A stretch of 64,000 bases of DNA from Agarophyton chilense (taxonomy: Eukaryota; Rhodophyta; Florideophyceae; Gracilariales; Gracilariaceae): NCBI GenBank assembly GCA_030374765.1, contig JARGXX010000097.1, forward strand, positions 1,113,141 to 1,177,140. The letters run 5' to 3'. The notes beneath the pieces were generated by a model. It was not told the DNA's origin. It ran no database searches and saw only the letters and a list, made by a program, of their open reading frames with translations. The first letter of the stretch is position 1; each line of letters begins with the position of its first letter. The position numbers and the translations under genes were made by a program. Of this stretch, positions 10,985 to 44,786 are shown in pieces.

Positions 10985-11260
10985 AAGTCCTCCTTTTATA
11001 AACGCAAAGAACGACACGTGAGCATAAGCTACGTCTGTGTTTTCGGAAAGCTAGTATTGGGTTCTAGATTTCTAGTTTGGGTGTGCTAGAATGTCTATGG
11101 TTAGCATTCATAGATTCGCAGATTTTTGATGCTAGAATATCTAGCGCAAAAATACTAGCCCAAGTGAAGTTCGGGAAGAATGTAGAAAACTAGCAATTAT
11201 CCGTACTAACACCGGCACACTAGGAAGAATGGAAGAGAACTTCGGAGATATCTTTCGATA
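10985..11260 (+). repeat. Possible LTR remnant related to the Copia-3 3' flank
   Basis: The stretch TGAGCATAAGCTACGTCTG (from about 11021) continuing through GTTTTCGGAAAGCTAGTATT closely resembles the minus-strand sequence that follows the Copia-3 fragment at about 49340-49295. Both then become rich in CTAG-type words. It is probably a decayed LTR or solo LTR of that family. Exact ends were not found. Confidence 0.45.
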
Positions 11261-11542
11261 CTCATTAATCCTAGACCATGAATTCTACCGACAATGAAAA
11301 GAATACTGAACGCTATCTAGCGCATGATCATTCATTTAGCGCAGGTATCGTAGCTAGTATGAGCCGTTCAAATGCCCTGCACATTCAATTTAATGTCCTC
11401 TAATGACCCTAATGGCCAGTGCATAATACGGCGATCCTGCAACTGAGACCCGAAACGGGTCCCCGTTGCACGTGAAATGAGATCTTCCCAATTCGTATGC
11501 GGTGAACCGCTTTGCATCACGTCCCCCGATCGTTACGCTTCA

Positions 11543-11571
11543 CTTCGCGTCGCGCGAAGCGCGACGCGAAG
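11543..11571. repeat. Perfect 12-bp hairpin, CG-rich
   Basis: CTTCGCGTCGCG (11543-11554) and CGCGACGCGAAG (11560-11571) are exact inverted copies around a 5-nt loop. If the minus-strand intron-rich gene extends past 11641, this lies in its last exon or 3' untranslated region. Confidence 0.75.
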
Positions 11572-11640: not shown

Positions 11641-13067
11641 CTAAGTAGGTAGAAATCACAAAATCACACAAGTTAGAGCCCAATTCCTCGCTTCATGCAA
11701 GCACATTGCATATAAACAAACTTACCTCTGTCAATAATGTGCTTCTTGTATTGCCTCCACTTTCTTCAATCGCATCAATAAATAGAAAAAGGTCAGATCT
11801 CCGTCACAAAACAAACCCAAACCACATCAGCACGCCACTCACCTCTACAGCTACCACTTATCCCATCTCTTGTCCAATCTTGCCCCCTCTTCTCTTGCAG
11901 CAGCAAACAACGACAAGTCAGATCTCCTTCCCCAACGGCAAGTCAGATCTCCTTCCCTAACGCATACAAGATACGATGGAAGCTCGCACTTACCTTTGAT
12001 GCCACCATTTCCCGATCAACCATTGTCTTAACAAGAAAGAAATATAAGTCAGACTTCCACCAAAAATCGAAACCAAATTACTTCAATGACGCACTCACCT
12101 CCTAAGAAACTTGCTCGGCCCAGTCCTTCTAGAATATCTCCCTCCTCACCCAATCGCTCCTTTCTGTCGCTTCGCAGCAGCAAAAAGTAACATGTCAAAA
12201 CTCATTCCAAAAACAATACCAGACACAAGTAGCACTCGCACTTACCCGCACTTCCATCATTTCCCCTTCATACAACGTCGCCCGCACTTTCGTCACAATA
12301 AAAAAATACAAGTCAGATCTTCGTCAATAACAGAAAGAAATTCCTCAGGGACGCACTCACCTCCTAAGCCGCTTGCTTGATTCACTTCCTTCAAAGAGGT
12401 TCCCCTCCCCACACAATCTTTGCTCTCCGTCGCTTCGCAGCAGCAAACAAGAACACGTCAGATATCCTTCCTAAATCTCTACGAGACACCAGTACCACTC
12501 CCACTCACCTTTAACTCAACGAATCCTGGCCCCCCATTCCAATTTTCTGTCGCTTCGCAGCCACAGTCAAAAATATGTCAGGTCTCCGTACAGATTGCAG
12601 GGCAGAACACGTAGCAAACTCACCTGTTCATCATCATGAGGGCCGCTGAAATAGGTTTCCCATGTTTGCAACCAGAAGGAGAACAAACACACCAGGTCAA
12701 TGTAGCGCGCCGCGTACCTCCAAATCGCAACCCACTCACCCGCCTACCCTCCACCCCACGCTGCATCACCCATCGCTCCCGTCGCTCGTCGCCCTCTTGC
12801 GCATGACCACAAACAGTTTCAAGGCCACAGATCAGCACAGACGACGTACATCTCAATCGCAAGCTGATCAACCCGTCACCCCCCACACCGCACCCCATCA
12901 CTAAACGCCCCGGTCGTGCTCCGCCCGCTCGCGCAAAAATAGAAACAGAGTCAGCACTTGTGAAACGCAAGCGCAATACCGCTTCTGACGCACCTAGAAA
13001 CCGCAGAAGGTCCACAAGGTCCAGAAGTCATCATATCACAGGATCTCAAGATCCAACAACCGCTCAT
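11641..13067 (-). CDS. Candidate intron-dense gene of tandemly duplicated small exons
   Basis: On the minus strand, donor-like sites (mostly AG|GTGAGTG or GG|GTAAGTG; three weaker) begin at 12993, 12879, 12739, 12623, 12508, 12360, 12245, 12098, 11993, 11842 and 11725. Spacing runs about 105-117 or 140-151 bp, largely alternating. Between donors there is a CTGAC or TTGAC branch-like motif and then a plausible acceptor; the last intron ends CTACCTACTTAG at 11641. Exons would be only about 40-65 nt and their peptides are paralogous: ERLGEEGDILEGLGRAS and QRLCGEGNLFEG, or LYEGEMMEVR and VDREMVASK. A possible start is the ATG at 13067, with TATATTTTT about 45 bp upstream. The repeated peptide is vaguely TPR-like, but I do not assign a family. 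The alternative is a non-coding minisatellite that happens to carry splice-like words. Confidence 0.5.
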
Positions 13068-13120
13068 CCGGCCAATACTCACAATCAATACAAGTACACG
13101 CCGCCGCTCAAAAATATACA
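13067..13120 (-). promoter_or_regulatory. Possible TATA region of the intron-dense gene
   Basis: The minus strand reads GTTGTATATTTTTGAGC just upstream of the proposed ATG at 13067. The distance (about 45-50 bp) allows only a very short leader. Support is limited to the word match and position. Confidence 0.3.
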
Positions 13121-13288: not shown

Positions 13289-13300
13289 CTGTATATAGTA
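13289..13300 (+). promoter_or_regulatory. Possible TATA box of the transposase gene
   Basis: GTATATAGTA lies about 85 bp upstream of the ATG at 13380 and is followed by a pyrimidine-rich tract. The intron-dense gene on the other strand starts about 220 bp away, so this would be one half of a divergent promoter region. Confidence 0.35.
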
Positions 13301-13379: not shown

Positions 13380-13549
13380 ATGCAGCGTTGTCGCTTCCCA
13401 AGGTGCACCTTCGAGACAAAAGGTCATACCTCCCTTGTCCAACACCAGCGCCGGTGTCGCTACCGCACCACCCGCAACGCCTTCGTCGCCACCACCCCAA
13501 AAGATGGAACTCAATTCCCACCACGCACGAAGCGCCCACGCGTCCAGAC
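13380..13549 (+). pseudogene. Transposase N-terminal exon (C2HC finger), cut by Copia-1
   Basis: From the ATG at 13380 the frame gives MQRCRFPRCTFETKGHTSL and continues with a C4-x4-C9-x12-H22-x3-C26 zinc-finger pattern, as found at the N terminus of Plavaka/CACTA-like transposases. The finger is followed by a basic, Pro-rich linker ending in RPRVQ at the insertion site. Copia-1 enters after CAGAC (13545-13549) and the frame stops 11 bases inside the LTR. If the element is ignored, the same frame continues without a stop at 26110, which links this exon to the large transposase body 12.5 kb away. The start codon is preceded by CCACC-like sequence. Confidence 0.6.
13545..13549. repeat. Target-site duplication CAGAC, left copy
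   Basis: CAGAC directly precedes TGTTGG, the first bases of the Copia-1 LTR. The identical pentamer follows the end of the third LTR at 26110-26114. Confidence 0.9.
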
Positions 13550-14237
13550 TGTTGGCTGTTGACCCTGTGCTGTCACTGAAAAACAAAAGTGCAGGGGAGC
13601 ATGGGCTGTTTTGGAGGGTGCCCCTGGAAAAGCGCATATGCGTGTCAGTCGGATCTCAACGTGAACTCGGGCTGTGATTGGCTACTGCAAATGTGCACAT
13701 GCAATGTGGTGTGTACAAGTGGTATGGCACTATTGGGTTTGTCTGTGGTACACGTGTGTACGTGGTCTACTTGTACTACTGTGCACGCTGTTCAATATGT
13801 CCAGCTGGTGTACTATGAACACATCTCACAAGGTGTAACGAATGTACTTGGAGAAGAGACGTGACATGTGTATTACAGGAGACTTGGTGTACTGTGCTGG
13901 AACGTGAATGTGTATGGAGGCGGATTGCAAGTAGTGTATGCTGGCATATTGAATTTGTGCACACGTCAGTGTAATTATGGGCTGTGCACTGTATATTGCC
14001 TTGTTGTGCGCTGCAATGAACATTGACTAGGGTTAATGTCATGCTTGAATATGATTGGTAGTATTGAGTGTCCCTGCTTTGTAGTCTAGGGTTTACTTTG
14101 AGTTGGAGTCTAGACAGCTGACGTTTTGAAGTAGTATATAAGTGAAAGTTTGAGCGCCTCCAAGTAAATCCAAGCCAGAGCTGGCGAACTTCCTTTTCAT
14201 TCCCTCAACCTTTCCTTCAGCTTTTCCCTTTCCATCA
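13550..14237 (+). repeat. Copia-1 LTR 1
   Basis: It starts TGTTGGCTG and ends TTTCCATCA, with canonical TG...CA ends. It carries the CGCATATGCG palindrome and the TGATTGGCTACTGCAAATG block shared with Copia-2 LTRs, and a TATATAAG box near its 3' end. LTR 2 and LTR 3 look identical by eye. Confidence 0.92.
14135..14142 (+). promoter_or_regulatory. TATA box in the Copia-1 LTR
   Basis: TATATAAG lies 96 bp before the LTR end, where an LTR promoter is expected. The same box recurs in LTR 2 and LTR 3 (offsets 5936 and 11872) and in the Copia-1c LTR near 50459 on the minus strand. Confidence 0.6.
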
Positions 14238-14251
14238 GGTTATGGGCCCAG
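14238..14251 (+). other. Copia-1a primer-binding site (initiator tRNA-Met anticodon arm)
   Basis: GGTTATGGGCCCAG follows the LTR without a gap. It is complementary to CTGGGCCCATAACC, the anticodon stem-loop of eukaryotic initiator tRNA-Met, and not to the tRNA 3' CCA end. Drosophila copia is known to use a 5' half of this tRNA as primer, so the same half-tRNA priming is inferred here. Confidence 0.8.
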
Positions 14252-15439
14252 CCCCGCTGACCTCTGCCGTCTAGTTCGTCTCTCGCCGCTCTCCCGCACC
14301 GCCGTTCACCCGTTTCGCTGTTCTATTCTCTTCGTTTCCGCCGTAGTAGCCGTTTCGTCGGGTGTGTGACCGTATCGTGGGTTGGTGTTGGTATTTTCTT
14401 TCGGTCTTGCGTTACTCCCTGAGGGCGTTGTGGTGGTAGTGGTTGGACGTTGTTATCGTGATTGTGTTTGGGTGCTCGTTGTTGCCCGTGTTTGTCGATC
14501 GCTATCCGTTTCGTTTGGTCTCCCTCTCTTTCGTTGTTTTGTGGATCCCTGCGTCGTGTTGCAGGTTCTGATCTGAGAGGTTGAGGACCGTGTTTGTTGA
14601 AGTCTGGGCCTGGAGTTCTTGGCTCAGCGTTCGTGTGTGTTTTTGTGTTTGGTCTGCATCTTTGCCTGTGCGACGAGCGGTTGATCCGAGGTACTTTGGG
14701 TGATTCCTTGTACTCGGGGACGTTAGCCTGGCGGCTTGAACCAAAGCAGGTGTACTGTCAAGCGGGTTCCCCACTGGTCCTTTTAGGGCGGATAACAGTG
14801 ACGGTCGAAAGATCTGGTTGAACTTTGCGGGTGCATTTGTGGACGGGGTGCCGTGGCGCACTGCATTTGGCTGGTTGTTTGACTTTGTGTGTGAGCCCGA
14901 CCTTTGTGGTTGGGCACTTGGACTGTTGTGAACAGCATCCATAAGGAGCTTTTGATCCGCAGTACGCGGGGAGGCGACGTTTCGAAGGCTGACCTCCTTT
15001 TCAGGATCAGGCCGCGTGCGATCTTCATTGATTGCTCGTTAGAAGCGTATCTTGGTGTTGAAGTAGCTTCGGTTTCGAGGTCGCGCTAGTTCTTGAAAGA
15101 GGCCAGAGAGGGTCAACTTGGTGAAGGCATATCTTCGGTCATTAACCATCCTCTGGAAGCCTCGTAAGGAGCAACGCGCCTTCTCCTTTTGACGTGGGAG
15201 GAGGTAGACTGCAGAAAACCGTTATCTACCCAGAAGAGCTCTGGGGGCCAGGGGTCCGACCTTTAGGGACGCGGGTATAGGAAGCCCTGCCAGTGCGCCC
15301 GCAGACTATTGTCTGTTCAATCTTGAAGACTTATTTGTTGTTTGTTGTTTTTACTTTGTTGTTGTTGTCTGTTGTTGTTGTTCACTTGTCTGTTGCTGTC
15401 AAGCCATCTCTCTCGGCCTCTTGTGACACTTTGCACACC
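14252..15439 (+). other. Copia-1a untranslated leader
   Basis: This is 1.2 kb between the PBS and the gag ATG. It is T/G-rich and has a (TTG)n-like tract at about 15330-15390. Small open frames on both strands repeat exactly in the second unit, but they have no protein features and I do not treat them as genes. Packaging signals would be expected here. Confidence 0.6.
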
Positions 15440-18400
15440 ATGGATTCGTTCAGTGGGGTGAAAATCGAAAAGCTGGTTGAGGATAACTTCCACGTATGGA
15501 AGCAGAAGATTGAGCTGCTGCTTGCACTCAAGGACCTCGACGGCCACCTCGACTCTGTTAGACCCACTGACGAAGATGAGCTGTCGACTTGGAAAAAGAA
15601 AGATGCCAAGGCCAGAGCTATTATTGGTCTCACACTCAGCGATGAGCATTTAGATCATGTGCGGGACGCCGACAACGCTGCCGATATGTGGAAAGCCATT
15701 TGCGATGTGTTCCAACGCAAGACTCTGCTCAACAAAATCAACGCCCGACGGTCCTTCTACTCTGCCAAGATGCGTGATGATGAGAAAATGCTACAGTTCA
15801 TCAACCGTGTACGTCATCTGGCATCGGACCTGAAGTGTATGGACGTTGTTGTTGAGGAGGAGGACATTGCTATGGCCATCCTATGCGGACTTCCGGAAAG
15901 ATTCGAGCACCTCATCGTCGCAATTGATACCACGATTGGCGATCGTCAACTCACTCTAGAGTTTGTGAAGAGTCGTCTGCTGCAAGAAGAGCAGCGAATG
16001 AACGATCGTGCCAAGGAGGAGCCTGGTGGAAGTGAGGCAGCTTTGGTTGGCAGGCAGTCGCGATGGAAGAACATCGAGTGTCATTATTGTCATAAGAAGG
16101 GTCATATCCAGAGGAACTGTTTCAAGAAGCAACGTGATGGGGCTAACATGAATCAGGTCGGTGCTGCTCACCCAACTGTCAATACTGAGCTCAGCGATGA
16201 GCGAGGTACGGGTGGCAACGACTCTGACTTTGTATGTCTCATTGCTACTGGCTCTGATAAAGCCACGAACAGTGACTGGATTGTTGACTCTGGTGCTACT
16301 GCCCACATGACTTTTGACGAATCCATGTTCCAAACATATGATAGTAAGGTGTCTTCTGGCGTTAGCATCGGTAATGATTCCAAACTAGAGTCTGTTGGTC
16401 ACGGTAGTGTGGAGCTTGATCTGATTGTGGAAGGGTCCAAACGAAAGTGCCAGCTGAAGCAAGTTGTTCATGTACCGAATTTAAGGTACCATTTGCTTTC
16501 TGTATCGGCGATTTGTGATGTGGGGTGCAAAGTAGTGTTTGAAAAAGAGAAGGTATGTGTATACAAGGGGTCAAAAGTGGTTGCCTTGGGGCGCCGCGTC
16601 AAAGGCCTATACTACCTTTGCACTGCTGCACACCAGTGTTCAGATGTAAACAGCGCACTTGTGTCGGACTTGTCACTATGGCATGCTCGAATGGCTCATG
16701 TGAATGTGGATGGTATCAAGCATATGGCTCGAAACAAGGTTGTGTCAGGGCTCAATGTAGACGTTGCGCAGGATTCAGATGTGTGTGGCTCATGTGTAGT
16801 AGGAAAAGCAACCCGTGCTCCGACTCCCAAGCAAGGGGGGGAACGAGCAAAACACGTACTGGAACTTGTTCACTCCGATGTGTCAGGTCCAGTAAGTGTG
16901 AAATCCTTGGGAGGCTCGCACTACTTCGTCACATTCATCGATGATCACAGTCGTTTCTGCTTCTTCTACATGCTCAAAACTAAGGATGAGGTGTTCCAGA
17001 TGTTCCTAAGGTGGCTCAAGTTTGTTCAAAACCAAACCGGCAGACAAGTGAAAACCATCACCGCACGTGAGAGTGTGCTCAAAGCATTGCGCACTGACAA
17101 CGGTGGTGAATATTTGTCACATCGTTTTACCAAAGAACTTGAACGTCACGGTATTGAGCATCAGCGAACTGTGCCTTACAATCCTCAGCAGAATGGACTT
17201 GCCGAACGGTTCAACCGCACACTCATGGACTTGGTCAGATCGATGTTATGTCACAAGAAATTGCCAAAGCACTTTTGGGCTGAGGCACTGAATGTTGCAG
17301 TGTATGTGCGCAACCGTGTGACTTGCAAAGCTCTTCCAAGTAGTGTGACACCATATGAACTGTGGCATGGTCAGAAGCCTGATGTGAGCAACCTGCGTGT
17401 GTTTGGGAGCCGATGCTGGTACAAGGTTGTGGATCATAAGCTGAAGAAGCTAGAGGAGCGTGGTGTGGAAGCTATCTTTATTGGGTACACCCCAGGGTCT
17501 CACGGATACAAGTTGTGGGACTCTGAAAAGAAAAAGGTGATTGTGTCAAGAGATGTACGGTTTGATGAGTTTTCGGGCTCAGACAACCAGTTTAGCTATG
17601 AGGAAGAGGACTACGCAGACATTGACTTTAGTAATATGTCTAGTTCACATGATACCTCTACATCTGACACATCTGGTGGACCCAGCGATGATGACCCTTC
17701 TGCGCCTTTGCCTGACTCTGATGATGCTTCTGACAGCTCTGTTGATGATTCCGCAGCTGATAAATCAGTTGAGCCTGTAGTGCATGAGACACAACCTGTT
17801 CGTAGGTCCACGCGTGAACGTAGGAAGCCGAGCTCATGGTGGCGTGCAACTGCTCTACTCACTGCCAGTGATGACACCCCGCCGTCATATGATGATGCTG
17901 TGTCACGTCCTGATTCCGAAGCATGGAAGAAGGCAATGAAGAGTGAGTACCAGTCACTAATTGAGCATGACACATGGGACTTAGTGCCAAGGCCAGCAGA
18001 CAGCAACGTGATTTCGTCCAAGTGGGTGTATGTGCAGAAGTATGAAGCAGCACCATCTGGTGAACCAACTATCAGGTACAAGGCTCGTATGGTTGCTAGA
18101 GGATTCCTGCAGATCGAGGGTGTTGACTTTTCTGAAACATATGCACCTGTTGTTAAGTTTACCTCGATCAGGATGATTCTGTCAGTGACTGCTGTACGAG
18201 ACTTTCATTTGCACCAGATGGATGTGAAAACAGCTTTTCTGAACGGTGACCTTGAGGAGACGGTGTACATGGAGCAGCCAACAGGTTTTGTGCAGCAAGG
18301 TAACGAGGATCTGGTGTGTCGTTTGAAGAAAGCCATCTATGGGCTACGACAGGCACCCAGACAGTGACATGCAAAGATATACTCGTTCCTTGTTGAGGAG

Positions 18401-19465
18401 ATGCAGTTGACGCCAAATGACGCAGATGAGTGTGTGTACAGCGGAAAGATACTGGGATTTGTTGTTTTGATTGCTCTATACGTTGATGACTTGCTTATTG
18501 CAAGTCCGAGCATGAAGACAATGGATCGTGTAAAGGCAGAGCTGTCGTCTCGGTTCCACATGAAAGACCTCTATCAAGCTCGCATGGTACTCGGATTCGA
18601 GATCCACCGTGACAGAGTTAAGCGAGAGTTGTATCTGACTCAGTCTGCGTACACACAAAAGGTCTTGGAACGTTTTGGCATGCACCAGTCCAAACCAGTT
18701 GACACTCCAATGGAAGTTGGCATGGACCTGTCTGCGATTCAGGATGTACTCAGGGAGGTGCCGTACCGTCCGGCAATTGGCTGTCTCATGTACTTGTCTG
18801 TAGGAACTCGTCCAGATATCTCATACGCGGTGTCCAAACTTGCCAAGTATGTTGAGAAACCTGGAGAGATTCACTGGAAGGCAGTCAAACGTGTGCTTCG
18901 CTATCTCAACGGTACTTGTACATTTGGTCTCACCTACGGCTTAAACACCGATTTGGCACTTCAAGGCTACGTGGACTCTGACTGGGCAGGCGATGTTGCA
19001 AACCGCAAGTCTACCAGTGGGTACTTGTTCATGATGGCTGGAGGTCCTGTGTCATGGTGTTCACGTCAGCAAGAAGTGGTTGCACTGTCTAGTGCTGAAG
19101 CTGAGTATGTGAGTCTGTGCAGTGGTTCCAAAGAGGCCATCTGGCTTAGGCGTTTGTGGAATGGCATCGGCATAGTCATTGGAGTAGAAGTGGACGATTC
19201 GGTAAAGTTGCTTGTTGAACCAACGCCTGTATATGTTGACAACCAAGGGTGCATTGACCTTGCCCGAAATGGCGTTGTCAACAAGCGTACCAAGCATATC
19301 GACATTCGTTTTCACTTTACTCGAGAAGCTCTACGTGACAAGTCGATTGTGTTGTTCTACTGCCCTACCGATTGTATGACAGCCGATATGCTCAACAAAC
19401 CACTTTGCCGTGTGAAGCACGAGAGGTTCCGTGAAGACAGTGGCGTCCGACACCTAGACCTTTGA
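15440..19465 (+). pseudogene. gag-pol: Copia-1a gag-pol polyprotein, one in-frame TGA
   Basis: The start is the ATG at 15440 (CACCATGG context). The open frame extends upstream to 15293, but that part is poorly coding. Domains in order, by residue: Gag; CCHC knuckle CHYCHKKGHIQRNC from about 214; protease VDSGATAHM near 283; integrase HHCC from about 415, with D480, D553 and E589 (35 residues between the last two); RT with YAPVVKFTSIR and VKTAFLNGD; YVDD near 1014; RNase H YVDSDWAGD and LSSAEAEY. It ends with the tRNA-proximal HIDIRFHF segment. A TGA at 18365-18367 (codon 976) sits at the conserved Trp position after GLRQAPRQ, and the frame continues unbroken to the stop at 19463-19465. The polyprotein is therefore cut within RT before the catalytic box. 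It could move only with help from another copy or by readthrough. Confidence 0.9.
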
Positions 19466-19485
19466 AGTCAGTGACAGAGGGGGAG

Positions 19486-20173
19486 TGTTGGCTGTTGACC
19501 CTGTGCTGTCACTGAAAAACAAAAGTGCAGGGGAGCATGGGCTGTTTTGGAGGGTGCCCCTGGAAAAGCGCATATGCGTGTCAGTCGGATCTCAACGTGA
19601 ACTCGGGCTGTGATTGGCTACTGCAAATGTGCACATGCAATGTGGTGTGTACAAGTGGTATGGCACTATTGGGTTTGTCTGTGGTACACGTGTGTACGTG
19701 GTCTACTTGTACTACTGTGCACGCTGTTCAATATGTCCAGCTGGTGTACTATGAACACATCTCACAAGGTGTAACGAATGTACTTGGAGAAGAGACGTGA
19801 CATGTGTATTACAGGAGACTTGGTGTACTGTGCTGGAACGTGAATGTGTATGGAGGCGGATTGCAAGTAGTGTATGCTGGCATATTGAATTTGTGCACAC
19901 GTCAGTGTAATTATGGGCTGTGCACTGTATATTGCCTTGTTGTGCGCTGCAATGAACATTGACTAGGGTTAATGTCATGCTTGAATATGATTGGTAGTAT
20001 TGAGTGTCCCTGCTTTGTAGTCTAGGGTTTACTTTGAGTTGGAGTCTAGACAGCTGACGTTTTGAAGTAGTATATAAGTGAAAGTTTGAGCGCCTCCAAG
20101 TAAATCCAAGCCAGAGCTGGCGAACTTCCTTTTCATTCCCTCAACCTTTCCTTCAGCTTTTCCCTTTCCATCA
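19486..20173 (+). repeat. Copia-1 LTR 2 (shared, central)
   Basis: It lies exactly 5936 bp after LTR 1 and has the same ends. It serves as 3' LTR of the first unit and 5' LTR of the second. No target duplication flanks it, which shows that the two units did not insert separately. Confidence 0.92.
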
Positions 20174-20187
20174 GGTTATGGGCCCAG
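20174..20187 (+). other. Copia-1b primer-binding site
   Basis: This is the same GGTTATGGGCCCAG sequence directly after LTR 2, complementary to the initiator tRNA-Met anticodon arm. Confidence 0.8.
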
Positions 20188-21375
20188 CCCCGCTGACCTC
20201 TGCCGTCTAGTTCGTCTCTCGCCGCTCTCCCGCACCGCCGTTCACCCGTTTCGCTGTTCTATTCTCTTCGTTTCCGCCGTAGTAGCCGTTTCGTCGGGTG
20301 TGTGACCGTATCGTGGGTTGGTGTTGGTATTTTCTTTCGGTCTTGCGTTACTCCCTGAGGGCGTTGTGGTGGTAGTGGTTGGACGTTGTTATCGTGATTG
20401 TGTTTGGGTGCTCGTTGTTGCCCGTGTTTGTCGATCGCTATCCGTTTCGTTTGGTCTCCCTCTCTTTCGTTGTTTTGTGGATCCCTGCGTCGTGTTGCAG
20501 GTTCTGATCTGAGAGGTTGAGGACCGTGTTTGTTGAAGTCTGGGCCTGGAGTTCTTGGCTCAGCGTTCGTGTGTGTTTTTGTGTTTGGTCTGCATCTTTG
20601 CCTGTGCGACGAGCGGTTGATCCGAGGTACTTTGGGTGATTCCTTGTACTCGGGGACGTTAGCCTGGCGGCTTGAACCAAAGCAGGTGTACTGTCAAGCG
20701 GGTTCCCCACTGGTCCTTTTAGGGCGGATAACAGTGACGGTCGAAAGATCTGGTTGAACTTTGCGGGTGCATTTGTGGACGGGGTGCCGTGGCGCACTGC
20801 ATTTGGCTGGTTGTTTGACTTTGTGTGTGAGCCCGACCTTTGTGGTTGGGCACTTGGACTGTTGTGAACAGCATCCATAAGGAGCTTTTGATCCGCAGTA
20901 CGCGGGGAGGCGACGTTTCGAAGGCTGACCTCCTTTTCAGGATCAGGCCGCGTGCGATCTTCATTGATTGCTCGTTAGAAGCGTATCTTGGTGTTGAAGT
21001 AGCTTCGGTTTCGAGGTCGCGCTAGTTCTTGAAAGAGGCCAGAGAGGGTCAACTTGGTGAAGGCATATCTTCGGTCATTAACCATCCTCTGGAAGCCTCG
21101 TAAGGAGCAACGCGCCTTCTCCTTTTGACGTGGGAGGAGGTAGACTGCAGAAAACCGTTATCTACCCAGAAGAGCTCTGGGGGCCAGGGGTCCGACCTTT
21201 AGGGACGCGGGTATAGGAAGCCCTGCCAGTGCGCCCGCAGACTATTGTCTGTTCAATCTTGAAGACTTATTTGTTGTTTGTTGTTTTTACTTTGTTGTTG
21301 TTGTCTGTTGTTGTTGTTCACTTGTCTGTTGCTGTCAAGCCATCTCTCTCGGCCTCTTGTGACACTTTGCACACC

Positions 21376-24300
21376 ATGGATTCGTTCAGTGGGGTGAAAA
21401 TCGAAAAGCTGGTTGAGGATAACTTCCACGTATGGAAGCAGAAGATTGAGCTGCTGCTTGCACTCAAGGACCTCGACGGCCACCTCGACTCTGTTAGACC
21501 CACTGACGAAGATGAGCTGTCGACTTGGAAAAAGAAAGATGCCAAGGCCAGAGCTATTATTGGTCTCACACTCAGCGATGAGCATTTAGATCATGTGCGG
21601 GACGCCGACAACGCTGCCGATATGTGGAAAGCCATTTGCGATGTGTTCCAACGCAAGACTCTGCTCAACAAAATCAACGCCCGACGGTCCTTCTACTCTG
21701 CCAAGATGCGTGATGATGAGAAAATGCTACAGTTCATCAACCGTGTACGTCATCTGGCATCGGACCTGAAGTGTATGGACGTTGTTGTTGAGGAGGAGGA
21801 CATCGCTATGGCCATCCTATGCGGACTTCCGGAAAGATTCGAGCACCTCATCGTCGCAATTGATACCACGATTGGCGATCGTCAACTCACTCTAGAGTTT
21901 GTGAAGAGTCGTCTGCTGCAAGAAGAGCAGCGAATGAACGATCGTGCCAAGGAGGAGCCTGGTGGAAGTGAGGCAGCTTTGGTTGGCAGGCAGTCGCGAT
22001 GGAAGAACATCGAGTGTCATTATTGTCATAAGAAGGGTCATATCCAGAGGAACTGTTTCAAGAAGCAACGTGATGGGGCTAACATGAATCAGGTCGGTGC
22101 TGCTCACCCAACTGTCAATACTGAGCTCAGCGATGAGCGAGGTACGGGTGGCAACGACTCTGACTTTGTATGTCTCATTGCTACTGGCTCTGATAAAGCC
22201 ACGAACAGTGACTGGATTGTTGACTCTGGTGCTACTGCCCACATGACTTTTGACGAATCCATGTTCCAAACATATGATAGTAAGGTGTCTTCTGGCGTTA
22301 GCATCGGTAATGATTCCAAACTAGAGTCTGTTGGTCACGGTAGTGTGGAGCTTGATCTGATTGTGGAAGGGTCCAAACGAAAGTGCCAGCTGAAGCAAGT
22401 TGTTCATGTACCGAATTTAAGGTACCATTTGCTTTCTGTATCGGCGATTTGTGATGTGGGGTGCAAAGTAGTGTTTGAAAAAGAGAAGGTATGTGTATAC
22501 AAGGGGTCAAAAGTGGTTGCCTTGGGGCGCCGCGTCAAAGGCCTATACTACCTTTGCACTGCTGCACACCAGTGTTCAGATGTAAACAGCGCACTTGTGT
22601 CGGACTTGTCACTATGGCATGCTCGAATGGCTCATGTGAATGTGGATGGTATCAAGCATATGGCTCGAAACAAGGTTGTGTCAGGGCTCAATGTAGACGT
22701 TGCGCAGGATTCAGATGTGTGTGGCTCATGTGTAGTAGGAAAAGCAACCCGTGCTCCGACTCCCAAGCAAGGGGGGGAACGAGCAAAACACGTACTGGAA
22801 CTTGTTCACTCCGATGTGTCAGGTCCAGTAAGTGTGAAATCCTTGGGAGGCTCGCACTACTTCGTCACATTCATCGATGATCACAGTCGTTTCTGCTTCT
22901 TCTACATGCTCAAAACTAAGGATGAGGTGTTCCAGATGTTCCTAAGGTGGCTCAAGTTTGTTCAAAACCAAACCGGCAGACAAGTGAAAACCATCACCGC
23001 ACGTGAGAGTGTGCTCAAAGCATTGCGCACTGACAACGGTGGTGAATATTTGTCACATCGTTTTACCAAAGAACTTGAACGTCACGGTATTGAGCATCAG
23101 CGAACTGTGCCTTACAATCCTCAGCAGAATGGACTTGCCGAACGGTTCAACCGCACACTCATGGACTTGGTCAGATCGATGTTATGTCACAAGAAATTGC
23201 CAAAGCACTTTTGGGCTGAGGCACTGAATGTTGCAGTGTATGTGCGCAACCGTGTGACTTGCAAAGCTCTTCCAAGTAGTGTGACACCATATGAACTGTG
23301 GCATGGTCAGAAGCCTGATGTGAGCAACCTGCGTGTGTTTGGGAGCCGATGCTGGTACAAGGTTGTGGATCATAAGCTGAAGAAGCTAGAGGAGCGTGGT
23401 GTGGAAGCTATCTTTATTGGGTACACCCCAGGGTCTCACGGATACAAGTTGTGGGACTCTGAAAAGAAAAAGGTGATTGTGTCAAGAGATGTACGGTTTG
23501 ATGAGTTTTCGGGCTCAGACAACCAGTTTAGCTATGAGGAAGAGGACTACGCAGACATTGACTTTAGTAATATGTCTAGTTCACATGATACCTCTACATC
23601 TGACACATCTGGTGGACCCAGCGATGATGACCCTTCTGCGCCTTTGCCTGACTCTGATGATGCTTCTGACAGCTCTGTTGATGATTCCGCAGCTGATAAA
23701 TCAGTTGAGCCTGTAGTGCATGAGACACAACCTGTTCGTAGGTCCACGCGTGAACGTAGGAAGCCGAGCTCATGGTGGCGTGCAACTGCTCTACTCACTG
23801 CCAGTGATGACACCCCGCCGTCATATGATGATGCTGTGTCACGTCCTGATTCCGAAGCATGGAAGAAGGCAATGAAGAGTGAGTACCAGTCACTAATTGA
23901 GCATGACACATGGGACTTAGTGCCAAGGCCAGCAGACAGCAACGTGATTTCGTCCAAGTGGGTGTATGTGCAGAAGTATGAAGCAGCACCATCTGGTGAA
24001 CCAACTATCAGGTACAAGGCTCGTATGGTTGCTAGAGGATTCCTGCAGATCGAGGGTGTTGACTTTTCTGAAACATATGCACCTGTTGTTAAGTTTACCT
24101 CGATCAGGATGATTCTGTCAGTGACTGCTGTACGAGACTTTCATTTGCACCAGATGGATGTGAAAACAGCTTTTCTGAACGGTGACCTTGAGGAGACGGT
24201 GTACATGGAGCAGCCAACAGGTTTTGTGCAGCAAGGTAACGAGGATCTGGTGTGTCGTTTGAAGAAAGCCATCTATGGGCTACGACAGGCACCCAGACAG

Positions 24301-25401
24301 TGACATGCAAAGATATACTCGTTCCTTGTTGAGGAGATGCAGTTGACGCCAAATGACGCAGATGAGTGTGTGTACAGCGGAAAGATACTGGGATTTGTTG
24401 TTTTGATTGCTCTATACGTTGATGACTTGCTTATTGCAAGTCCGAGCATGAAGACAATGGATCGTGTAAAGGCAGAGCTGTCGTCTCGGTTCCACATGAA
24501 AGACCTCTATCAAGCTCGCATGGTACTCGGATTCGAGATCCACCGTGACAGAGTTAAGCGAGAGTTGTATCTGACTCAGTCTGCGTACACACAAAAGGTC
24601 TTGGAACGTTTTGGCATGCACCAGTCCAAACCAGTTGACACTCCAATGGAAGTTGGCATGGACCTGTCTGCGATTCAGGATGTACTCAGGGAGGTGCCGT
24701 ACCGTCCGGCAATTGGCTGTCTCATGTACTTGTCTGTAGGAACTCGTCCAGATATCTCATACGCGGTGTCCAAACTTGCCAAGTATGTTGAGAAACCTGG
24801 AGAGATTCACTGGAAGGCAGTCAAACGTGTGCTTCGCTATCTCAACGGTACTTGTACATTTGGTCTCACCTACGGCTTAAACACCGATTTGGCACTTCAA
24901 GGCTACGTGGACTCTGACTGGGCAGGCGATGTTGCAAACCGCAAGTCTACCAGTGGGTACTTGTTCATGATGGCTGGAGGTCCTGTGTCATGGTGTTCAC
25001 GTCAGCAAGAAGTGGTTGCACTGTCTAGTGCTGAAGCTGAGTATGTGAGTCTGTGCAGTGGTTCCAAAGAGGCCATCTGGCTTAGGCGTTTGTGGAATGG
25101 CATCGGCATAGTCATTGGAGTAGAAGTGGACGATTCGGTAAAGTTGCTTGTTGAACCAACGCCTGTATATGTTGACAACCAAGGGTGCATTGACCTTGCC
25201 CGAAATGGCGTTGTCAACAAGCGTACCAAGCATATCGACATTCGTTTTCACTTTACTCGAGAAGCTCTACGTGACAAGTCGATTGTGTTGTTCTACTGCC
25301 CTACCGATTGTATGACAGCCGATATGCTCAACAAACCACTTTGCCGTGTGAAGCACGAGAGGTTCCGTGAAGACAGTGGCGTCCGACACCTAGACCTTTG
25401 A
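21376..25401 (+). pseudogene. gag-pol: Copia-1b gag-pol polyprotein, same in-frame TGA
   Basis: This is the second unit of the array, with the same domain order and length as the first. The TGA at 24301-24303 is at the same conserved Trp codon, and the frame continues to 25401. At least one silent difference separates the units (GAC-ATC against GAC-ATT at 21804). The shared stop means the mutation predates the duplication of the unit, or was copied by gene conversion. The copy is not autonomous as written. Confidence 0.9.
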
Positions 25402-25421
25402 AGTCAGTGACAGAGGGGGAG

Positions 25422-26109
25422 TGTTGGCTGTTGACCCTGTGCTGTCACTGAAAAACAAAAGTGCAGGGGAGCATGGGCTGTTTTGGAGGGTGCCCCTGGA
25501 AAAGCGCATATGCGTGTCAGTCGGATCTCAACGTGAACTCGGGCTGTGATTGGCTACTGCAAATGTGCACATGCAATGTGGTGTGTACAAGTGGTATGGC
25601 ACTATTGGGTTTGTCTGTGGTACACGTGTGTACGTGGTCTACTTGTACTACTGTGCACGCTGTTCAATATGTCCAGCTGGTGTACTATGAACACATCTCA
25701 CAAGGTGTAACGAATGTACTTGGAGAAGAGACGTGACATGTGTATTACAGGAGACTTGGTGTACTGTGCTGGAACGTGAATGTGTATGGAGGCGGATTGC
25801 AAGTAGTGTATGCTGGCATATTGAATTTGTGCACACGTCAGTGTAATTATGGGCTGTGCACTGTATATTGCCTTGTTGTGCGCTGCAATGAACATTGACT
25901 AGGGTTAATGTCATGCTTGAATATGATTGGTAGTATTGAGTGTCCCTGCTTTGTAGTCTAGGGTTTACTTTGAGTTGGAGTCTAGACAGCTGACGTTTTG
26001 AAGTAGTATATAAGTGAAAGTTTGAGCGCCTCCAAGTAAATCCAAGCCAGAGCTGGCGAACTTCCTTTTCATTCCCTCAACCTTTCCTTCAGCTTTTCCC
26101 TTTCCATCA
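25422..26109 (+). repeat. Copia-1 LTR 3
   Basis: It starts after the purine tract AGAGGGGGAG and ends TTTCCATCA at 26109. It is directly followed by CAGAC, the right target duplication. Confidence 0.92.
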
Positions 26110-26114
26110 CAGAC
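26110..26114. repeat. Target-site duplication CAGAC, right copy
   Basis: It matches 13545-13549 and directly follows the last LTR base. Confidence 0.9.
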
Positions 26115-29100
26115 CGCAGACACCCGCTCCGTTGGCATCTCCAACCCCCTTTCCAACATCGATCCGCTGGTAGAAGAGGACGACTACCATTCGAGCCAGC
26201 TCGCTCTGGCCATACGCTCCGCAGACGCCGCCCACATTCTCAACGCTTCTCTTCGCTCCCCTTCTCCCAGCCCTCGCCCACTCGTGAAGCTCCATCCCAT
26301 CATCTCCTACATCTCATTCATCGCCACCAAGCTCGGCAAACGCAAAGCCGACGAACTCATTACCCTCGTCAAGGACCCCAATTACTCCCAAACACTCATT
26401 CAACAGGTTACCTCCGTCTCCCACTGCCTTCAACTTCATTCCAAACTATTCGAAGACACTGTCGGCTCCATCGGCTTCAAATCCACAACCGTTCGTCACA
26501 ATCCCTCAAACATCACTGAACTCTCTACCTCAAAAACCCCGTCGATGTCCTTCTCCAGCAACTTCGCTACGCCACTCGCGCTAACACCTTCTTCCACCCC
26601 GTCACACAGTGTTCTTCAAATGGTTCTCCTGCACTCGCTCATCCCATGGCTTCAAAACTCGGCAGTTGTGTTTATCCGGACCTCAAACACCACATCCTCT
26701 GTTCTCAAGACCCAGATGTTATTTGGCACAACGTGGACATCACTGGCACGGAATCTTTCATCGGCTTCATCCAGCTCTACTCGGACAAGTCTTCCACCTC
26801 CCTGAAAAGCTCCTCTATCACCTCCTACCCCCTTCACATCACACTCCTCAACTTTTCAGACTCCTTCCGTCGCCATTGCATCTCCCGCAACTACACCCTC
26901 CTTGGCTACTTCCCCACCTCGTTCGACGCCCCTTCCTCCACATCCGACGAGGAATCCATCGAAGGCCACCTTCTTTCTTCAGCCCTCAGCCGCACCACCC
27001 GAATGGAACTCATCCAAGAATCTCTACAAACCATCCTCGAACCCCTCGCTGCAGTCGCCCTCAAGGGTTTCCCTTTCCGTGATGAAGACCAGGTCATTAG
27101 ACAGTGCCACCCAGTCATCGCAAACTATGCTGCAGACATCCAAGAAGCAAAAGACATCCTCGCCATCCTACACGGCACAAACCCATCCAAGCCGTGCCAC
27201 AGATGCCTAAAACCTCGCTCCGACCTCAACCTCCACCTCACTTCCGTATCCCCTCGAACTATTTCCCACACCCGTCGCACCAGATCCGCACACGACGCCC
27301 TTCTCAAGGATGCCAACGACGCCGAACAACTTCGCCGACCGCGCGTAGCAAGAACTCTCAGAGACCAAGCAGCATCTGTCCTCCGCACAAACTCCCTCTC
27401 CACGTACCACTCCTTCTTCGAAACATACCCTCTTCTTAATATATCCCCACTCCTCACCCCTTACTCTATCTTCTCCTTCGAACCCCTTCACAATTTCCAT
27501 CTGGGTATCTCCAAGCTCGTCAAACTGGCAACCATCGAACGCTTGAAGTCCGACAGCCTCTTCACCACTCTCGCGTCCTCCAACGGCTCCTCAAAATCCT
27601 TTAAATCCATCCGAAGCTCCCTTCTCACCAACGCAAACAACATCCTCACAGATATTGAAGCCAACTTCTCCGCACCCGGACTGCACATCGACTTTTCCAC
27701 ACCCGAAAAGGGTACATACCTAAACGGGTTCTTCACCTTGGACGGCATCAAAGGCATGCTCGAGGCAAAAGACTACCGCGCTGTCGACATGGTCTTCCCC
27801 TTCATAGGTGCCTTTTTCGACCGTTGTTGCGGTGAAGTTGACACAGCTCCCATCACCTCCATCTTCACAGCATACGCAGACCTCTTCACAGCCGCACTCC
27901 ACCACAACACCACCTCAGAATGGAGAGACCAACGACTTTGCGACCTCCAAGAACTCATCAAGCACTTCAAGTCTCTTTGCGTCTCCGTCCTCGCCCCTTT
28001 CCAAGCTTCTCACTTCGGAACACTGAAGTTCCACCTTCTGGACCACATCATTGCTGATATTGATTTATACGGAAGTCTTCAATTCACTGACGCCGGCATC
28101 TACGAACATGCACACCTCCTCTTCAAAAACCACTATCGACGCACATCCCGAAGATCCTCAACCGCTCACAGAGAAACAGTCGACGCAATCCAGCTCACAG
28201 AAGGCTTCCGAAACTCAACCGCCATTCCCCACCACACTTCCTCCTCCTCAAACTCCTCCTTCCTTCATGCTCGACGGTTTTCCATGGTCCGCGACGGTAC
28301 AACCGTTCTCTTCCGCGACATCATCACTGCAAAGAAGTACCTCCGTGCAAACCGAAACTGCTCCAATGCCTCTCTCTCAAACATGTTCACCTCTTCCACC
28401 CTTTCTTTCATCACCCAAATCTCACGCGACGCCATTTCACCCTTTCACGACCTGTGCCTCGAAGTTCTCGGACTCTCTTCCTCTTCCCTGTCTCTCTCCT
28501 CTCTTACCTTCTCCCTGGTCAACTCCGCCTTCATCCCCAGCGGGTTCACCCCCGCCTTGCAAGACGTCGACCAAACATTCAACTGCATCCGCTTCAGAGA
28601 ACCACCAGTCCCCGTCACACAGCGCATATTTGCCACCTCCACCTTCGGTCCTTCCAAACTTCCAAAGTTCTCTCACATTCTCGTCTCCGGTACTCCACCA
28701 CCTAACTGCAACTTCCCCACTGTTTGGGTCTGCAAGCTCCTCGCCCTTCTTCGCTTTCCCAAAAAAGATGAAAATCCTGACGAACGCGAATATGCTTTCG
28801 TCCGCTTCTTCGAACTCACAACTCCCCTCGATCACGTGGATGAAACCCTGAAGTGCATCACCCTCCGTTGGGCAACAGACGATGAAGAGGACCACACCAT
28901 CCCCCCCGCTGGAAACAGATTACAACGCTCTGGCTCCTATGTCGCACCCTGGTTCGGTCTCGTTCCCTTCTCCGCCATCCTCGGTTCCGTCCATCTTGTA
29001 CGCCAGAACTACCCAGCACGCCCTTTCTTCCCGCCCCTCCTCTGGCATGAACATCGCTTCTATATCAACCGATTCTACCGCGACCCAAGAGCTAGAGCTT

Positions 29101-29126
29101 GTTTCTCTACCAAAGAATCAACTTGA
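26110..29126 (+). pseudogene. Plavaka/CACTA-like transposase body, frameshifted
   Basis: The first part (26110 to about 26520) continues the frame of the finger exon at 13380 (KLGKRKADELITLVKDPNY is visible). Near 26517-26523 the coding sense moves one frame, picks up at LYLKNPVDVLLQQLRY and runs to the stop at 29126. A one-base deletion explains it. The body has a Cys pair PCHRCLKPRSDL (27196-27231), then FEPLHNFHLGISK, then LKFHLLDHIIADIDLYG and EHAHLLFKNHYRRTSRR, and near the end LWHEHRFYINRFY. The blocks G-x-x-PCxxC, PLHNxxLG, K-x-H-x-x-x-H and F-Y-x-N-x-F are those of Plavaka-type (CACTA-related) transposases. I could not identify all three catalytic acids. Terminal inverted repeats were not found by eye. 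Confidence 0.6.
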
Positions 29127-29577: not shown

Positions 29578-31983
29578 CTATCGCTTCCCTCCTCTACCCA
29601 TCTCCTCATCCAACGCCTCTACCACAGATGCAATCCACGCATCCAAGCGGGCCAGATGCATCACACTTCCATCCACATACTGTGTCTCTCCTTCCTTCCA
29701 AGGTTGCTCTACATCGTACCCCAGAAACTCTCTCAAAACCTCCACACTCAATCCGTTCTTGAAGTACAAGTCATCAGGTTCATCCCCATACTTTGTCGAG
29801 TTCACATCGTACCCTGAAAAACATAGGTTTTCCATCTTGTCTAACCTCCACGCAGATATGACGGGCTTCCCATTCGCGTCTTTCGGCAACAACTTCTCCC
29901 GAGCCTCCATCTTCTGCTCTTCATACAACACATTCAGTTCTTCATCATCCTCGTTAAGAGGTTTTCTAGCAAGTAGAGAATATCCCAGACCCAAAAACAA
30001 CCTATCCCTCGCATTCCTTTTCCGCACCCCCACAGCATCACTGAGAGCCTGTTTCATCCGCCTCCTCAAACACGTATCCCTCCTCAACTCCTCTTCACAC
30101 TGCTTCTTCATTCCCATCCCCACAAATTTTCTCCATATCGGATTCTCCAACTCCATCCGCACCACATGCAACAACATCTCATCACTTCCCCCCTGAAAAG
30201 ACGGAGTGTAGGCCTTCGGTCCCCACCAATTTCTTCCTGTTGCCAGCTCCATAGGATCTAAAGGCACCATCTTCTTTTCATTTATAATCAGAATAATCTG
30301 ATTCCTCCCCGCCCTCACTTCTTCCGCCCGGTTCGACCAGTTTCGCTCCGGTTCCCTCCTTCCGAAGCACAACTCACTCGTCTCCTCCTTTGCATAACGC
30401 AATATGTTCTCGTAAACTCTCGAGGCTACTCCAATAAATCGCATATCCACTTCAATTCCATACCGTTTCCGACCCCCCTTCCCTTCTTCGCCACCCACTT
30501 GTCCTGGTCGACCACGAAGAGTCTCTTGCAATGACGTCAGCAGCATTTCCTTTTTCCTATCTTCGACCTCCAGCCTCTTCATCTCCCTGTGTGCCAGTTT
30601 CAAGCTTAGTTGCAAACTTGCGTTGTCATCCCTTGCCCTTTTAAGCTCCCCCTTCATGTCTCCAAGCTTGGCCAACAGCTGATTCCGCCCCATAAACTTT
30701 GTTTCTGCATACGTCATCCCCTTGTGTTCGCCTTCCTTCCACGGGCGAATTGCATCCTCATCCTCCTCATCCCCACCCCAGAGTCTATCTCCTTTTTTAA
30801 CCTCCACTCCCTTCCTACACACCCTCACACTCTGGTTTCTCGGAGGTCTCCCCGCGCCCACTCGGTCGTTTGACCCCTCAGCGTCCCCTTGTTCGACACT
30901 CCTCACTGCATGATCCGGGGTCTGTCGATAAGAAGCCTGTTGTATTGATCTGCCTTCCGGGACTCTGCGAATCTGCACCCCCTTCCTTCCAACCACGACT
31001 CCTTTTCCCGTAGGCTCCGTCCCTACACGTTTTTCCCCGCTCACGCTTGGTATGGCCCTTGGAAAACGAACTTGGCCCTTATGCCGTCCCGCACTCCCAC
31101 CTGGAACAATTTTGTCCTTTGATTCGTCAAAAACGTGTTTCTTTGAAACAGCAGTGCCTCCGCGTACCTCATTCATTTCTGAACCATGCCCTTCTGCCTC
31201 ATTGCCTTCTCCTCTTTCATGGAAGTTAACACCATGGGAACCGCTACACCGTCGCCTCTTCGCTTGTCTCTCGGACCCATTTTCTTCGTCACTAGCTAAG
31301 TTTGGAATGTCGTGAACGGCCCGATTACGAGTCACCGGACCTCCCGAATTTCTTTCGATCCTCCTCACCACCTCGCTCACCGTACCTTCCGTCGCAGACG
31401 ACGAACCTCTTTCTTGCTCCTTTTCCTTCACCGTCTTAACAGAGGGCTTCTTGGCTGAAGGTGCAGACCGAGTGGAGGACGGTGTCTGTGGAAGAGTCGC
31501 CGCTTCGCCACCATAAAGTTTCATCATGTTCACGTCCCAGCAATAGAAAGAGTTGCGCTCCATATCTCCCAGACGGTTCGGTACGGTATCTGTTGTTTTG
31601 AACGGATAAGGGTAATCCATTTCTTTCTCATCCTGAATCAACACCTTCCATACCACCACGGGTTTCTCCTTCGCTTTCCCGACCAGTTTGTGACCATGCA
31701 ACTCTCTAACCAAATCTCCCGTAAGCCTCCCCGTCGCATCAACCGCACCCCTTACAAATGCCTTCCCCACGACTTTCTTTTCGCCGTTCGGAGTGGTCAC
31801 CAACAGAGTCACCTGCTCGTCAGGTTTTGGCTTCCATGGTGGGATTCCTACCTTATTCGCCCGCGTTGCTCCGCTGCGCGTTGTAGGTATCGCGTCCTTC
31901 CTGGTAGAAGCCGTAACAGGCGGCTTGTGTTTCCGAGAACTCGGAATGATCCTCCTTTTCTCTGCGTTTTTGCGCCGCATCAC
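29578..31983 (-). CDS. Unknown 801-residue protein, convergent with transposase
   Basis: This long uninterrupted frame starts at the ATG at 31983 with a basic N terminus (MMRRKNAEKRRIIPSSRKHK). A compact N-terminal region of about 150 residues contains LVRELHGHKLVGK and YPYPFKTTDTVP. A charged, low-complexity middle follows (about 180-440), then a coiled-coil-like stretch at about 455-515 (LLAKLGDMKGELKRA). A C-terminal globular region contains NWWGPKAYTPSFQGG and FSGYDVNSTKYGDEPDD. GC content and Pro/Ser/Lys-rich style match the transposase. The 34-bp tail-to-tail spacing suggests it belongs to the same DNA transposon as an accessory or DNA-binding protein; that is inference. Length and frame purity make it a real coding region. 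No known family is recognised. Confidence 0.6.
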   Translation of the reverse strand: MMRRKNAEKRRIIPSSRKHKPPVTASTRKDAIPTTRSGATRANKVGIPPWKPKPDEQVTLLVTTPNGEKKVVGKAFVRGAVDATGRLTGDLVRELHGHKLVGKAKEKPVVVWKVLIQDEKEMDYPYPFKTTDTVPNRLGDMERNSFYCWDVNMMKLYGGEAATLPQTPSSTRSAPSAKKPSVKTVKEKEQERGSSSATEGTVSEVVRRIERNSGGPVTRNRAVHDIPNLASDEENGSERQAKRRRCSGSHGVNFHERGEGNEAEGHGSEMNEVRGGTAVSKKHVFDESKDKIVPGGSAGRHKGQVRFPRAIPSVSGEKRVGTEPTGKGVVVGRKGVQIRRVPEGRSIQQASYRQTPDHAVRSVEQGDAEGSNDRVGAGRPPRNQSVRVCRKGVEVKKGDRLWGGDEEDEDAIRPWKEGEHKGMTYAETKFMGRNQLLAKLGDMKGELKRARDDNASLQLSLKLAHREMKRLEVEDRKKEMLLTSLQETLRGRPGQVGGEEGKGGRKRYGIEVDMRFIGVASRVYENILRYAKEETSELCFGRREPERNWSNRAEEVRAGRNQIILIINEKKMVPLDPMELATGRNWWGPKAYTPSFQGGSDEMLLHVVRMELENPIWRKFVGMGMKKQCEEELRRDTCLRRRMKQALSDAVGVRKRNARDRLFLGLGYSLLARKPLNEDDEELNVLYEEQKMEAREKLLPKDANGKPVISAWRLDKMENLCFSGYDVNSTKYGDEPDDLYFKNGLSVEVLREFLGYDVEQPWKEGETQYVDGSVMHLARLDAWIASVVEALDEEMGRGGKR

Positions 31984-33063
31984 GGGAACCTATCGATAAG
32001 CGCCTCGGAATCTCTCCTAGACCGTCACGAAAAGCAGGGCTCGCTGACAACGTAAATGAACACTCGTTGGCTACGTAGCCGTTCGATAGGGATCACGGGC
32101 TTGCTTGACCTCTCTCGGACGATGGCGAACAGAAACGCGTGCAGACGAAGGGAATGAACGCTGCTTGAAGTCCTCTTCACGTCCAAAAGAATCGCTTTTT
32201 TTGGGTTCGTGATCTGGATGTGTTTCCGTCGAGGACAAAGGTATGCAATTACACTTTGCACACCTGGTACAAGCAGCGTAAGAAACGGAAAAGGCGTGTG
32301 CGACTCGAGCCGTGCAACAAGAACATCTGCCTCAAGATGATTGACTGCGAAAAAATCTTTTTTTTGCTGCTGCGCTATTTGGCGAGCTGCTCGATACCCA
32401 ACGCAGAGACAAATCTCCAATGCGGGTATCATAGTAGCTTCGACGGCGTCTAAATCTGTTTCGCGTAGCCTTGAGTCATAAAGTGCCTGACTACTCACTT
32501 TATCAATGATAGCAACATGTGCATCTCAACGAATGATATGTTCTGACTCACATTCGATGTTTCCATTCCGTCATTTCGTCGAGTTGAAACGATTCGACCG
32601 CGTTCGCGCCGTTGTGGGATTTCATCCGGGAAGGTAATAGGAGTTGTTTTCTCCTCTGTACCAAGCCACTTCTCAGCGCTCAATGACCTATGAAGATCGG
32701 CTCTCTTTCGGAACAACCTCTCTGTGAAAGTCCATTGCATTCGCAACACGGTTTTACGGCTAATTCTTTGCCTCCCGTACTCTTTGACCGCATCTACTGT
32801 ACTCTCTTCGCTCTCAAGAGCGCACAGGGTGGGATGAGTTTCCGGACTATGGAGGCCGAAAACCAGTGGAGGCGATGGATTTACCTTCGAGGAATTGGAA
32901 AAAGCGAATTCAGAGCCCTGAGGATTTCTGTTTTGCATACCGCGGTCACTCGAGCGTCGACCATTTGGACTTAAGGTTCCGCTTGTGATGTTGTGAATCG
33001 GGCTTATTCTCGAGTTTATTTGCAAAGTAAATGCAGTCTTCCATTCTTCATCATTCGAATCGT
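31984..33063. other. No firmly supported gene
   Basis: Two minus-strand open frames (32025-32498 and 32495-33091) overlap by four bases, but neither product has a recognisable domain. A short T-run (about 32350-32357) and mixed composition suggest non-coding or decayed sequence. The right end of the transposase-bearing element may lie here. Confidence 0.35.
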
Positions 33064-36070: not shown

Positions 36071-36074
36071 TCGA

Positions 36075-44772: not shown

Positions 44773-44786
44773 CTGGGCCCATAACC
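44773..44786 (-). other. Copia-2a primer-binding site
   Basis: In element sense it is GGTTATGGGCCCAG, directly adjoining the 5' LTR. The sequence is identical to the Copia-1 PBS and complementary to the initiator tRNA-Met anticodon arm. Confidence 0.8.

Follow-up and report, generated by a model that had tools for sequence, protein, structure and literature searches.

A giant Plavaka-type DNA transposon with a row of predicted short introns at its 3' end

The DNA analysed here, referred to as the window, is a 64-kb stretch in which the region 11641..13067 carries a row of splice-donor-like sites on the minus strand. This array belongs to the terminal ~2 kb, on the 3' side, of a giant DNA transposon of Plavaka type (CACTA-related), whose main features in the window are as follows.

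11032..11058, minus strand: 3' terminal inverted repeat, a 26/27 match to 49327-49301
11032..11400, minus strand: 3' subterminal region with GCTAG/CTAGC words (word count)
11543..11571, no strand: perfect 13-bp inverted repeat (hairpin) in the putative last exon
from 11640, minus strand: putative last exon, after intron 11
11641..11725, minus strand: predicted intron 11 (donor 11725, CTAAC branch, first TAG acceptor)
11726..12508, minus strand: duplicated part of the array, predicted introns 5-10 and exons 5-10
12509..12993, minus strand: upstream part of the array, predicted introns 1-4 and exons 1-4
12994..13034, minus strand: candidate first exon, with ATGs at 13034 and 13031
13111..13118, minus strand: TATA-like box (TATATTTT) of the array unit
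13292..13298, plus strand: TATA-like box (TATATAG) facing the transposase
13380..13549, plus strand: start of the transposase ORF (ATG 13380), split by copia
13550..26109, plus strand: two tandem copia retrotransposons with the middle LTR in common, inserted with a 5-bp duplication (CAGAC)
26110..29126, plus strand: remaining transposase region
29578..31989, minus strand: second ORF of the element (803 aa), no Pfam match
38902..45460, minus strand: copia retrotransposon nested in the element
49301..49327, plus strand: 5' terminal inverted repeat; the terminal ~267 bp recurs genome-wide

The element occupies 38.3 kb in the window, or about 19 kb minus the nested copias; lengths of about 12 to 25 kb were calculated for seven further copies in which both ends could be located. 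We searched the 79.8-Mb genome (135 contigs) with the 1427-base region and obtained at least 43 matches, of which at least 39 places covered at least 1000 of the 1427 bases and at least 35 were full-length array copies with 81-100% identity; these counts are lower bounds, as 40 of the 119 first-look candidates were scored. Twenty further copies were fetched as ~10-kb stretches. In 18 of them homology extended from window position 11032 (within a few bases) to 13548-13552, the exceptions being L017, which ends 6 bases short at the 3' end, and L026, which is without the part above 13068. Beyond 11032 homology stops and the flanks are mostly unrelated. Immediately after 13548-13552, 19 of the 20 copies (all except L026) resume at the equivalent of window position 26110. 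Truncation of this copy on its 5' side, at 13549 in the window, was also considered and rejected, since the sequence resumes at 26110 past the nested copias. Six copies (contigs C36, C41, C60, C69 and C70) have one common 3' flank and thus spread by segmental duplication, not by separate transposition.

The assignment to a Plavaka type rests on the transposase, whose ORF at 26520-29126 contains the Plavaka transposase domain PF18759 (E 4.7e-21, 75.8 bits, cut-off 26.3) and which forms an unbroken 957-aa frame in copy L009. Further likenesses to Plavaka, a CMCT/CACTA-related clade, are the terminal inverted repeats, similar versions of which occur at seven other fetched 5' ends, and the captured gene pieces. 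For Plavaka, a target site duplication of 2 or 3 bp is expected. A 2-bp flank match was seen at four of seven independent two-ended sites (TT, TT, GA and TA, read by eye, with TA presuming a mutated last base), and no match was seen at C16, C98 or the window copy. In the excerpts of Kojima 2025 (PMC12730594), Plavaka termini are given as TGT..ACA (PlavakaA) or CATCA..TGATG (PlavakaB), and C(2)C and H(3-4)H motifs are placed between the catalytic residues. In contrast, the ends of the window element are CGTCTGTG..CACAGACG, with TGT set in by 4 bases, and match neither form. Therefore, we call the element Plavaka-type by its transposase and place it in neither group. The excerpted Plavaka literature (PMC12730594, PMC8290104) contains no description of an 11-intron terminal unit. 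The genome has at least 123 Plavaka matches and, together with the splice signals described below, these suggest that the host is a mushroom-type basidiomycete.

Besides the transposase, the element carries the 803-aa ORF, which accompanies the transposase in other copies (up to 97% identical) and may be a second transposition protein. A TsaD-like piece (32025-32525, E 1.3e-12) lies between the terminal inverted repeats, and its surrounding DNA recurs in many element copies. A pheophorbide a oxygenase (PaO)-like piece (45847-46551, E 1.4e-8) also lies between them, and the DNA around it is present in full at four other places. Both element ends carry GCTAG/CTAGC words (8 in the 3' 369 bp and 5 in the 5' terminal 369 bp, with 51 in the whole window and 0 in the array). 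The array is oriented away from the transposase gene, and the two TATA-like boxes, one per strand, are located between the transposase ATG (13380, plus) and the first ATG of the array (13034, minus). Their conservation is only partial: among the variants listed, 24 of 34 copies have TATATA as the plus box, and 19 of 34 have TATATTTT, or the same with one extra T, as the minus box.

The earlier note on this DNA had reported eleven minus-strand donors at near-regular spacing, which we confirmed: GT is present at all 11 positions and the intervals along the array are 114, 140, 116, 115, 148, 115, 147, 105, 151 and 117 bp. It had also assigned a branch word and an acceptor to every interval. Nine of the donors begin a strict unit (GTRAGT / YTRAC / AG). 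The first two, 12993 (GTGCGT) and 12879 (GTGACG), deviate from GTRAGT, and intron 2 has CTGAT as its branch word. The density of such sites is indeed odd, as had been noted, with nine strict units in the array (all on the minus strand, 0 on the plus strand) versus three across the remaining window (minus 5792, minus 8371 and plus 5826). In 1000 dinucleotide shuffles of the region, the mean was 0.17 strict units and the maximum 2. Ten of the 11 introns have 39-49 nt between donor and branch, the exception being intron 9 with 72 nt when its second branch copy is used. Likewise, ten have 22-36 nt between the branch A and the first AG, the exception being intron 3 with 51 nt. With intron ends set at the first AG past the branch, the predicted introns are 66-100 nt and the predicted internal exons 1-10 of the window copy are 48, 56, 22, 44, 72, 41, 71, 33, 51 and 38 nt; in 29 of the 34 copies, the exon of 51 nt measures 52 nt. 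Intron 9 contains a 25-bp tandem duplication (11908-11962) that doubles the branch site and is partly gapped in about 20 of the 34 copies.

The array is internally repetitive, and the earlier proposal of an ~260-bp module copied together with its introns was borne out. In self-comparison, 12031-12246 and 12295-12509 matched across 217 nt at 73.7%. There are also six occurrences of a 42-nt branch/acceptor block in the array. Introns 3 and 11 are strict units though outside this block, and introns 1 and 2 have weaker versions of the signals in unchanged order. These data support expansion of the array by tandem duplication of units, each comprising an intron plus an exon and probably measuring ~105-150 bp. 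Between modules, the donor/branch/acceptor letters agree at 22 of 24 positions (two acceptor letters sit in an alignment gap), the introns at 87 of 120 and the exons at 70 of 106. The exonic length per module is 72+41=113 nt in one and 71+33=104 nt in the other, and neither is divisible by three, so that the frame-preserving duplication of a tandem repeat protein was not found.

These lengths, together with exons less alike than introns and frames that do not join, speak against the suggestion that the array encodes a protein of ~36-residue repeats. The related peptides on which that suggestion was based are present as open segments (by eye), but shared donors and acceptors do not join their frames. 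Peptide QRLCGEGNLFEG corresponds to exon 5 in frame 1 (72 nt); 2 bases then remain, so that exon 6 would have to be read in frame 1, which is open in 2 of 34 copies. Peptide ERLGEEGDILEG corresponds to exon 7, after which 1 base remains and exon 8 would have to be read in frame 2; 3 of the 34 copies have this frame open. LYEGEMMEVR lies in frame 2 and VDREMVASK in frame 0. From the ATG at 13031, 24 of the 34 copies (ATG present) terminate in the 56-nt exon 2, and the ORF of the window copy, which stops there, is 45 aa. Each exon is open in one frame in at least 23 of 34 copies, but the most open frames of neighboring exons do not join, and no long frame common to most of the 34 copies was found. 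Only L037 reads past exon 6 from 13031, with an open chain of 131 aa (191 aa from a further-upstream ATG) that stops just past the eighth intron, if acceptors are freely chosen.

In the most open frames, the ratio of synonymous to non-synonymous changes was 31:95 on internal and 156:488 on terminal branches, i.e., there was no difference. The transposase, used as a control, showed a weak synonymous excess (62:120 internal, 245:585 terminal). Since the control is weak too, this codon test has little power. Two candidate array peptides had no Pfam match at E up to 1. There were no Rfam matches at gathering thresholds, no tRNA was found with bacterial settings, and a search for an intron-less retrocopy with one exon 10-11 junction pattern (up to 3 mismatches) gave 0 matches. 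Protein coding by the array is not supported by these comparisons, the codon test among them being of low power.

To examine constraint on the splice signals, we used a tree of 34 copies, i.e., the window and 33 loci (L009-L041), with no row dropped; C118 (one of the 35 full-length places) and all partial places are outside it. Parsimony placed 449 changes on internal and 2342 on terminal branches. The donor (6 nt) and branch (5 nt) positions accounted for 13 internal and 131 terminal changes, versus 436 and 2211 for the remaining aligned 2.27 kb (Fisher p 0.019). With shifted masks as a control, the internal fraction was as low in 4 of 525 cases and the internal count in 10 of 525; when the AG positions were added to the mask, 8 of 525 shifted masks were as low. 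This depletion on internal branches is modest evidence that splicing mattered during the active life of the element. No such protection is seen on terminal branches, where the donors decay roughly as fast as the background, as would be expected for dead copies. The donor GT is intact in 28-33 of 34 copies, depending on the donor, and all 11 are kept in 13 of 34. In the most divergent copies the classes are nearly equal (identity in L041 is 0.86 for splice positions, 0.845 for introns and 0.83 for exons); in L051 the values are 0.875, 0.826 and 0.768, respectively, but over 315 positions only.

When up to 2 mismatches are allowed, a 21-base acceptor word of the array occurs at 100 places in the genome (reversed control, 0). 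Of its 30 exact places, 11 are outside the array places scored earlier, and for five of these 11 the element's 5' terminal ~267 bp recurs in matching orientation 6-11 kb away (arithmetic by eye). We fetched three of the 11 (L052-L054), as well as L055, which has a two-mismatch variant. L052, L053 and L054 are 90-97% identical to each other, keep exon 7 through the 3' part of the element, and have a cysteine-rich gene upstream of the array tail. This gene gave an IBR-like match (E 1.5e-4, 22.2 bits, cut-off 24.3) and a B-box match (E 1.3e-5, 25.6 bits, cut-off 27), neither of which reached its curated cut-off. Identity to the window in L052, L053 and L054, respectively, was 0.89, 0.89 and 0.85 for exons, 0.92, 0.92 and 0.935 for introns, and 0.92, 0.94 and 0.922 for splice positions; in L054, introns are conserved as well as splice positions. 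The donor GT is kept in 11 of 12 cases, the exception being 11993 in L052, and all three loci retain the branch words of introns 8, 10 and 11. The AGs of these introns, i.e., three of the four kept ones, are gone from the aligned places; in L052, an alternative AG was seen nearby (read by eye). Both the low identity of exons and the displaced acceptors count against a coding role. L052 and L053 also have a 26-bp exact stretch in common with window positions 36055-36080.

More distant relatives differ in whether they carry the array. In L051 (transposase 73% identical), part of the array is kept but rearranged, and L049 (58% identical) gave one 406-nt match, on the transposase side. L050, from a sister family (transposase 56% identical), had no array-like match and has an inverted-repeat-like end ~510 bp from the candidate transposase start (by eye). 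As this one member of the sister family has no room for an array, the array looks like a private, modular part of the window element's family.

We think that the array is a minus-strand unit that diverges from the transposase and is spliced, that its product is most likely a non-coding or UTR-type RNA, and that the introns are beneficial; from the sequence evidence, we give this reading a probability of roughly 0.57. The element with its ends and copies, the one-strand density of splice signals and the absence of a common frame are direct results, whereas transcription, splicing and any benefit are inferred. A candidate divergent promoter near 13118 would start the RNA, up to 11 short introns would be removed, and the RNA would end before the 3' inverted repeat. 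The exons would not need to code. Where selection is visible, it acts on spliceability and not on the reading frame, and the product is therefore most likely non-coding or UTR-type RNA. The introns themselves might raise the processing and accumulation of RNA passing through the array. A study of Cryptococcus neoformans (PMC3744415) reports that most of the genes tested yield far less mRNA once their introns are removed, with a cumulative effect. If so, a row of introns could raise the level of element RNA or of RNA from upstream captured genes. C. neoformans is likewise a basidiomycete in which the effect grows with intron number, but it was experimentally shown there for host genes, whereas the benefit of the array is deduced. 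Another phenomenon of possible relevance is spliceosome-coupled RNA silencing. It is conceivable, although we regard this as doubtful, that the array is a purpose-built non-coding intron cassette, in which strong introns were multiplied so that the RNA is handled like host mRNA and escapes such silencing, and which offers a spliced tail to upstream captured genes such as those in L052-L054.

The array could instead be a fast-evolving, protein-coding accessory gene that has lost its frame in most copies and is comparable to the many-exon tnpA-type mosaic genes found in plant CACTA elements. The excerpts of the soybean CACTA Tgmt* report (PMC2613891) describe very small exons, alternatively spliced mosaic transcripts and a proposed subterminal-repeat binder. 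As far as these excerpts go, the many-exon mosaic genes of plant CACTA elements (Tgmt*; En/Spm) are the nearest precedent, sharing with the window element a size of about 20 kb, subterminal repeats and very small exons (predicted here: 10 internal exons of 22-72 nt). The GCTAG words at both element ends, the one open frame per exon and the L037 chain are in agreement with a coding gene. However, here the unit is separate and diverges from the transposase; the open frames of adjacent exons are unjoined, most copies stop in exon 2, exons are less conserved than introns in both the module and the deep comparisons, and the two candidate peptides lack Pfam matches. We consider a coding accessory gene rather unlikely. 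Schistosome micro-exon genes also have rows of very short exons, and their lengths are multiples of three. The predicted array exons are similarly short, but only 4 of 10 internal exons in the window copy are multiples of three.

It is also possible that the array is an untranscribed degenerate tandem array, in which chance GGTGAGT, CTGAC and AG words were kept by duplication, e.g., as subterminal transposase-binding repeats. The 42-nt block common to six units and the near-background decay of donors on terminal branches would fit with this. However, introns 3 and 11 are strict outside the block and introns 1 and 2 keep the order of their weaker signals, internal branches avoid donor and branch changes, and none of eight array words tested occurs within 300 bp of the 5' terminus. 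GCTAG, the word that both ends repeat, is absent from the array and fits better as a binding repeat; subterminal binding repeats are not supported as an explanation of the array. An untranscribed array thus appears quite unlikely. The view of the earlier note, a host gene with duplicated mini-exons for a repeat protein, has the donor density and the module duplication in its favor. It has next to no chance of being correct, because the region lies between inverted repeats and recurs, with a common end, in dozens of dispersed places as part of a transposon, and because the frames are unjoined.

With these alternatives weighed, the spliced, most likely non-coding unit remains our preferred reading. 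A mobile element that retains many introns in a row, with no evident protein product, would allow the idea of introns as selfish cargo to be tested, and would show whether transposons gain from splicing and how captured genes come to expression. It is also a warning for annotation, as a many-exon host gene can be called at every one of the dozens of copies.

Several minor observations concern array fragments and retrotransposons. L055 has a 295-bp piece of the array (L055:715-1009), from intron 3 to exon 5, inside another repeat. The piece is followed by a perfect inverted repeat (by eye), which is reminiscent of a Helitron end. The 21-base variant of L055 is present at eight further places, including one array copy, and L055:99-304 matches window 34118-34323 at 88%. 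A 51-bp tandem repeat within the element (36175-36545, 7.3 copies) has a strong GC skew. The tandem copia pair inside the transposase gene is 99.97% identical across 6.6 kb, and a second copia family is represented in window 38902-64000 by several ~99% identical copies in both orientations, one of which is nested in the element.
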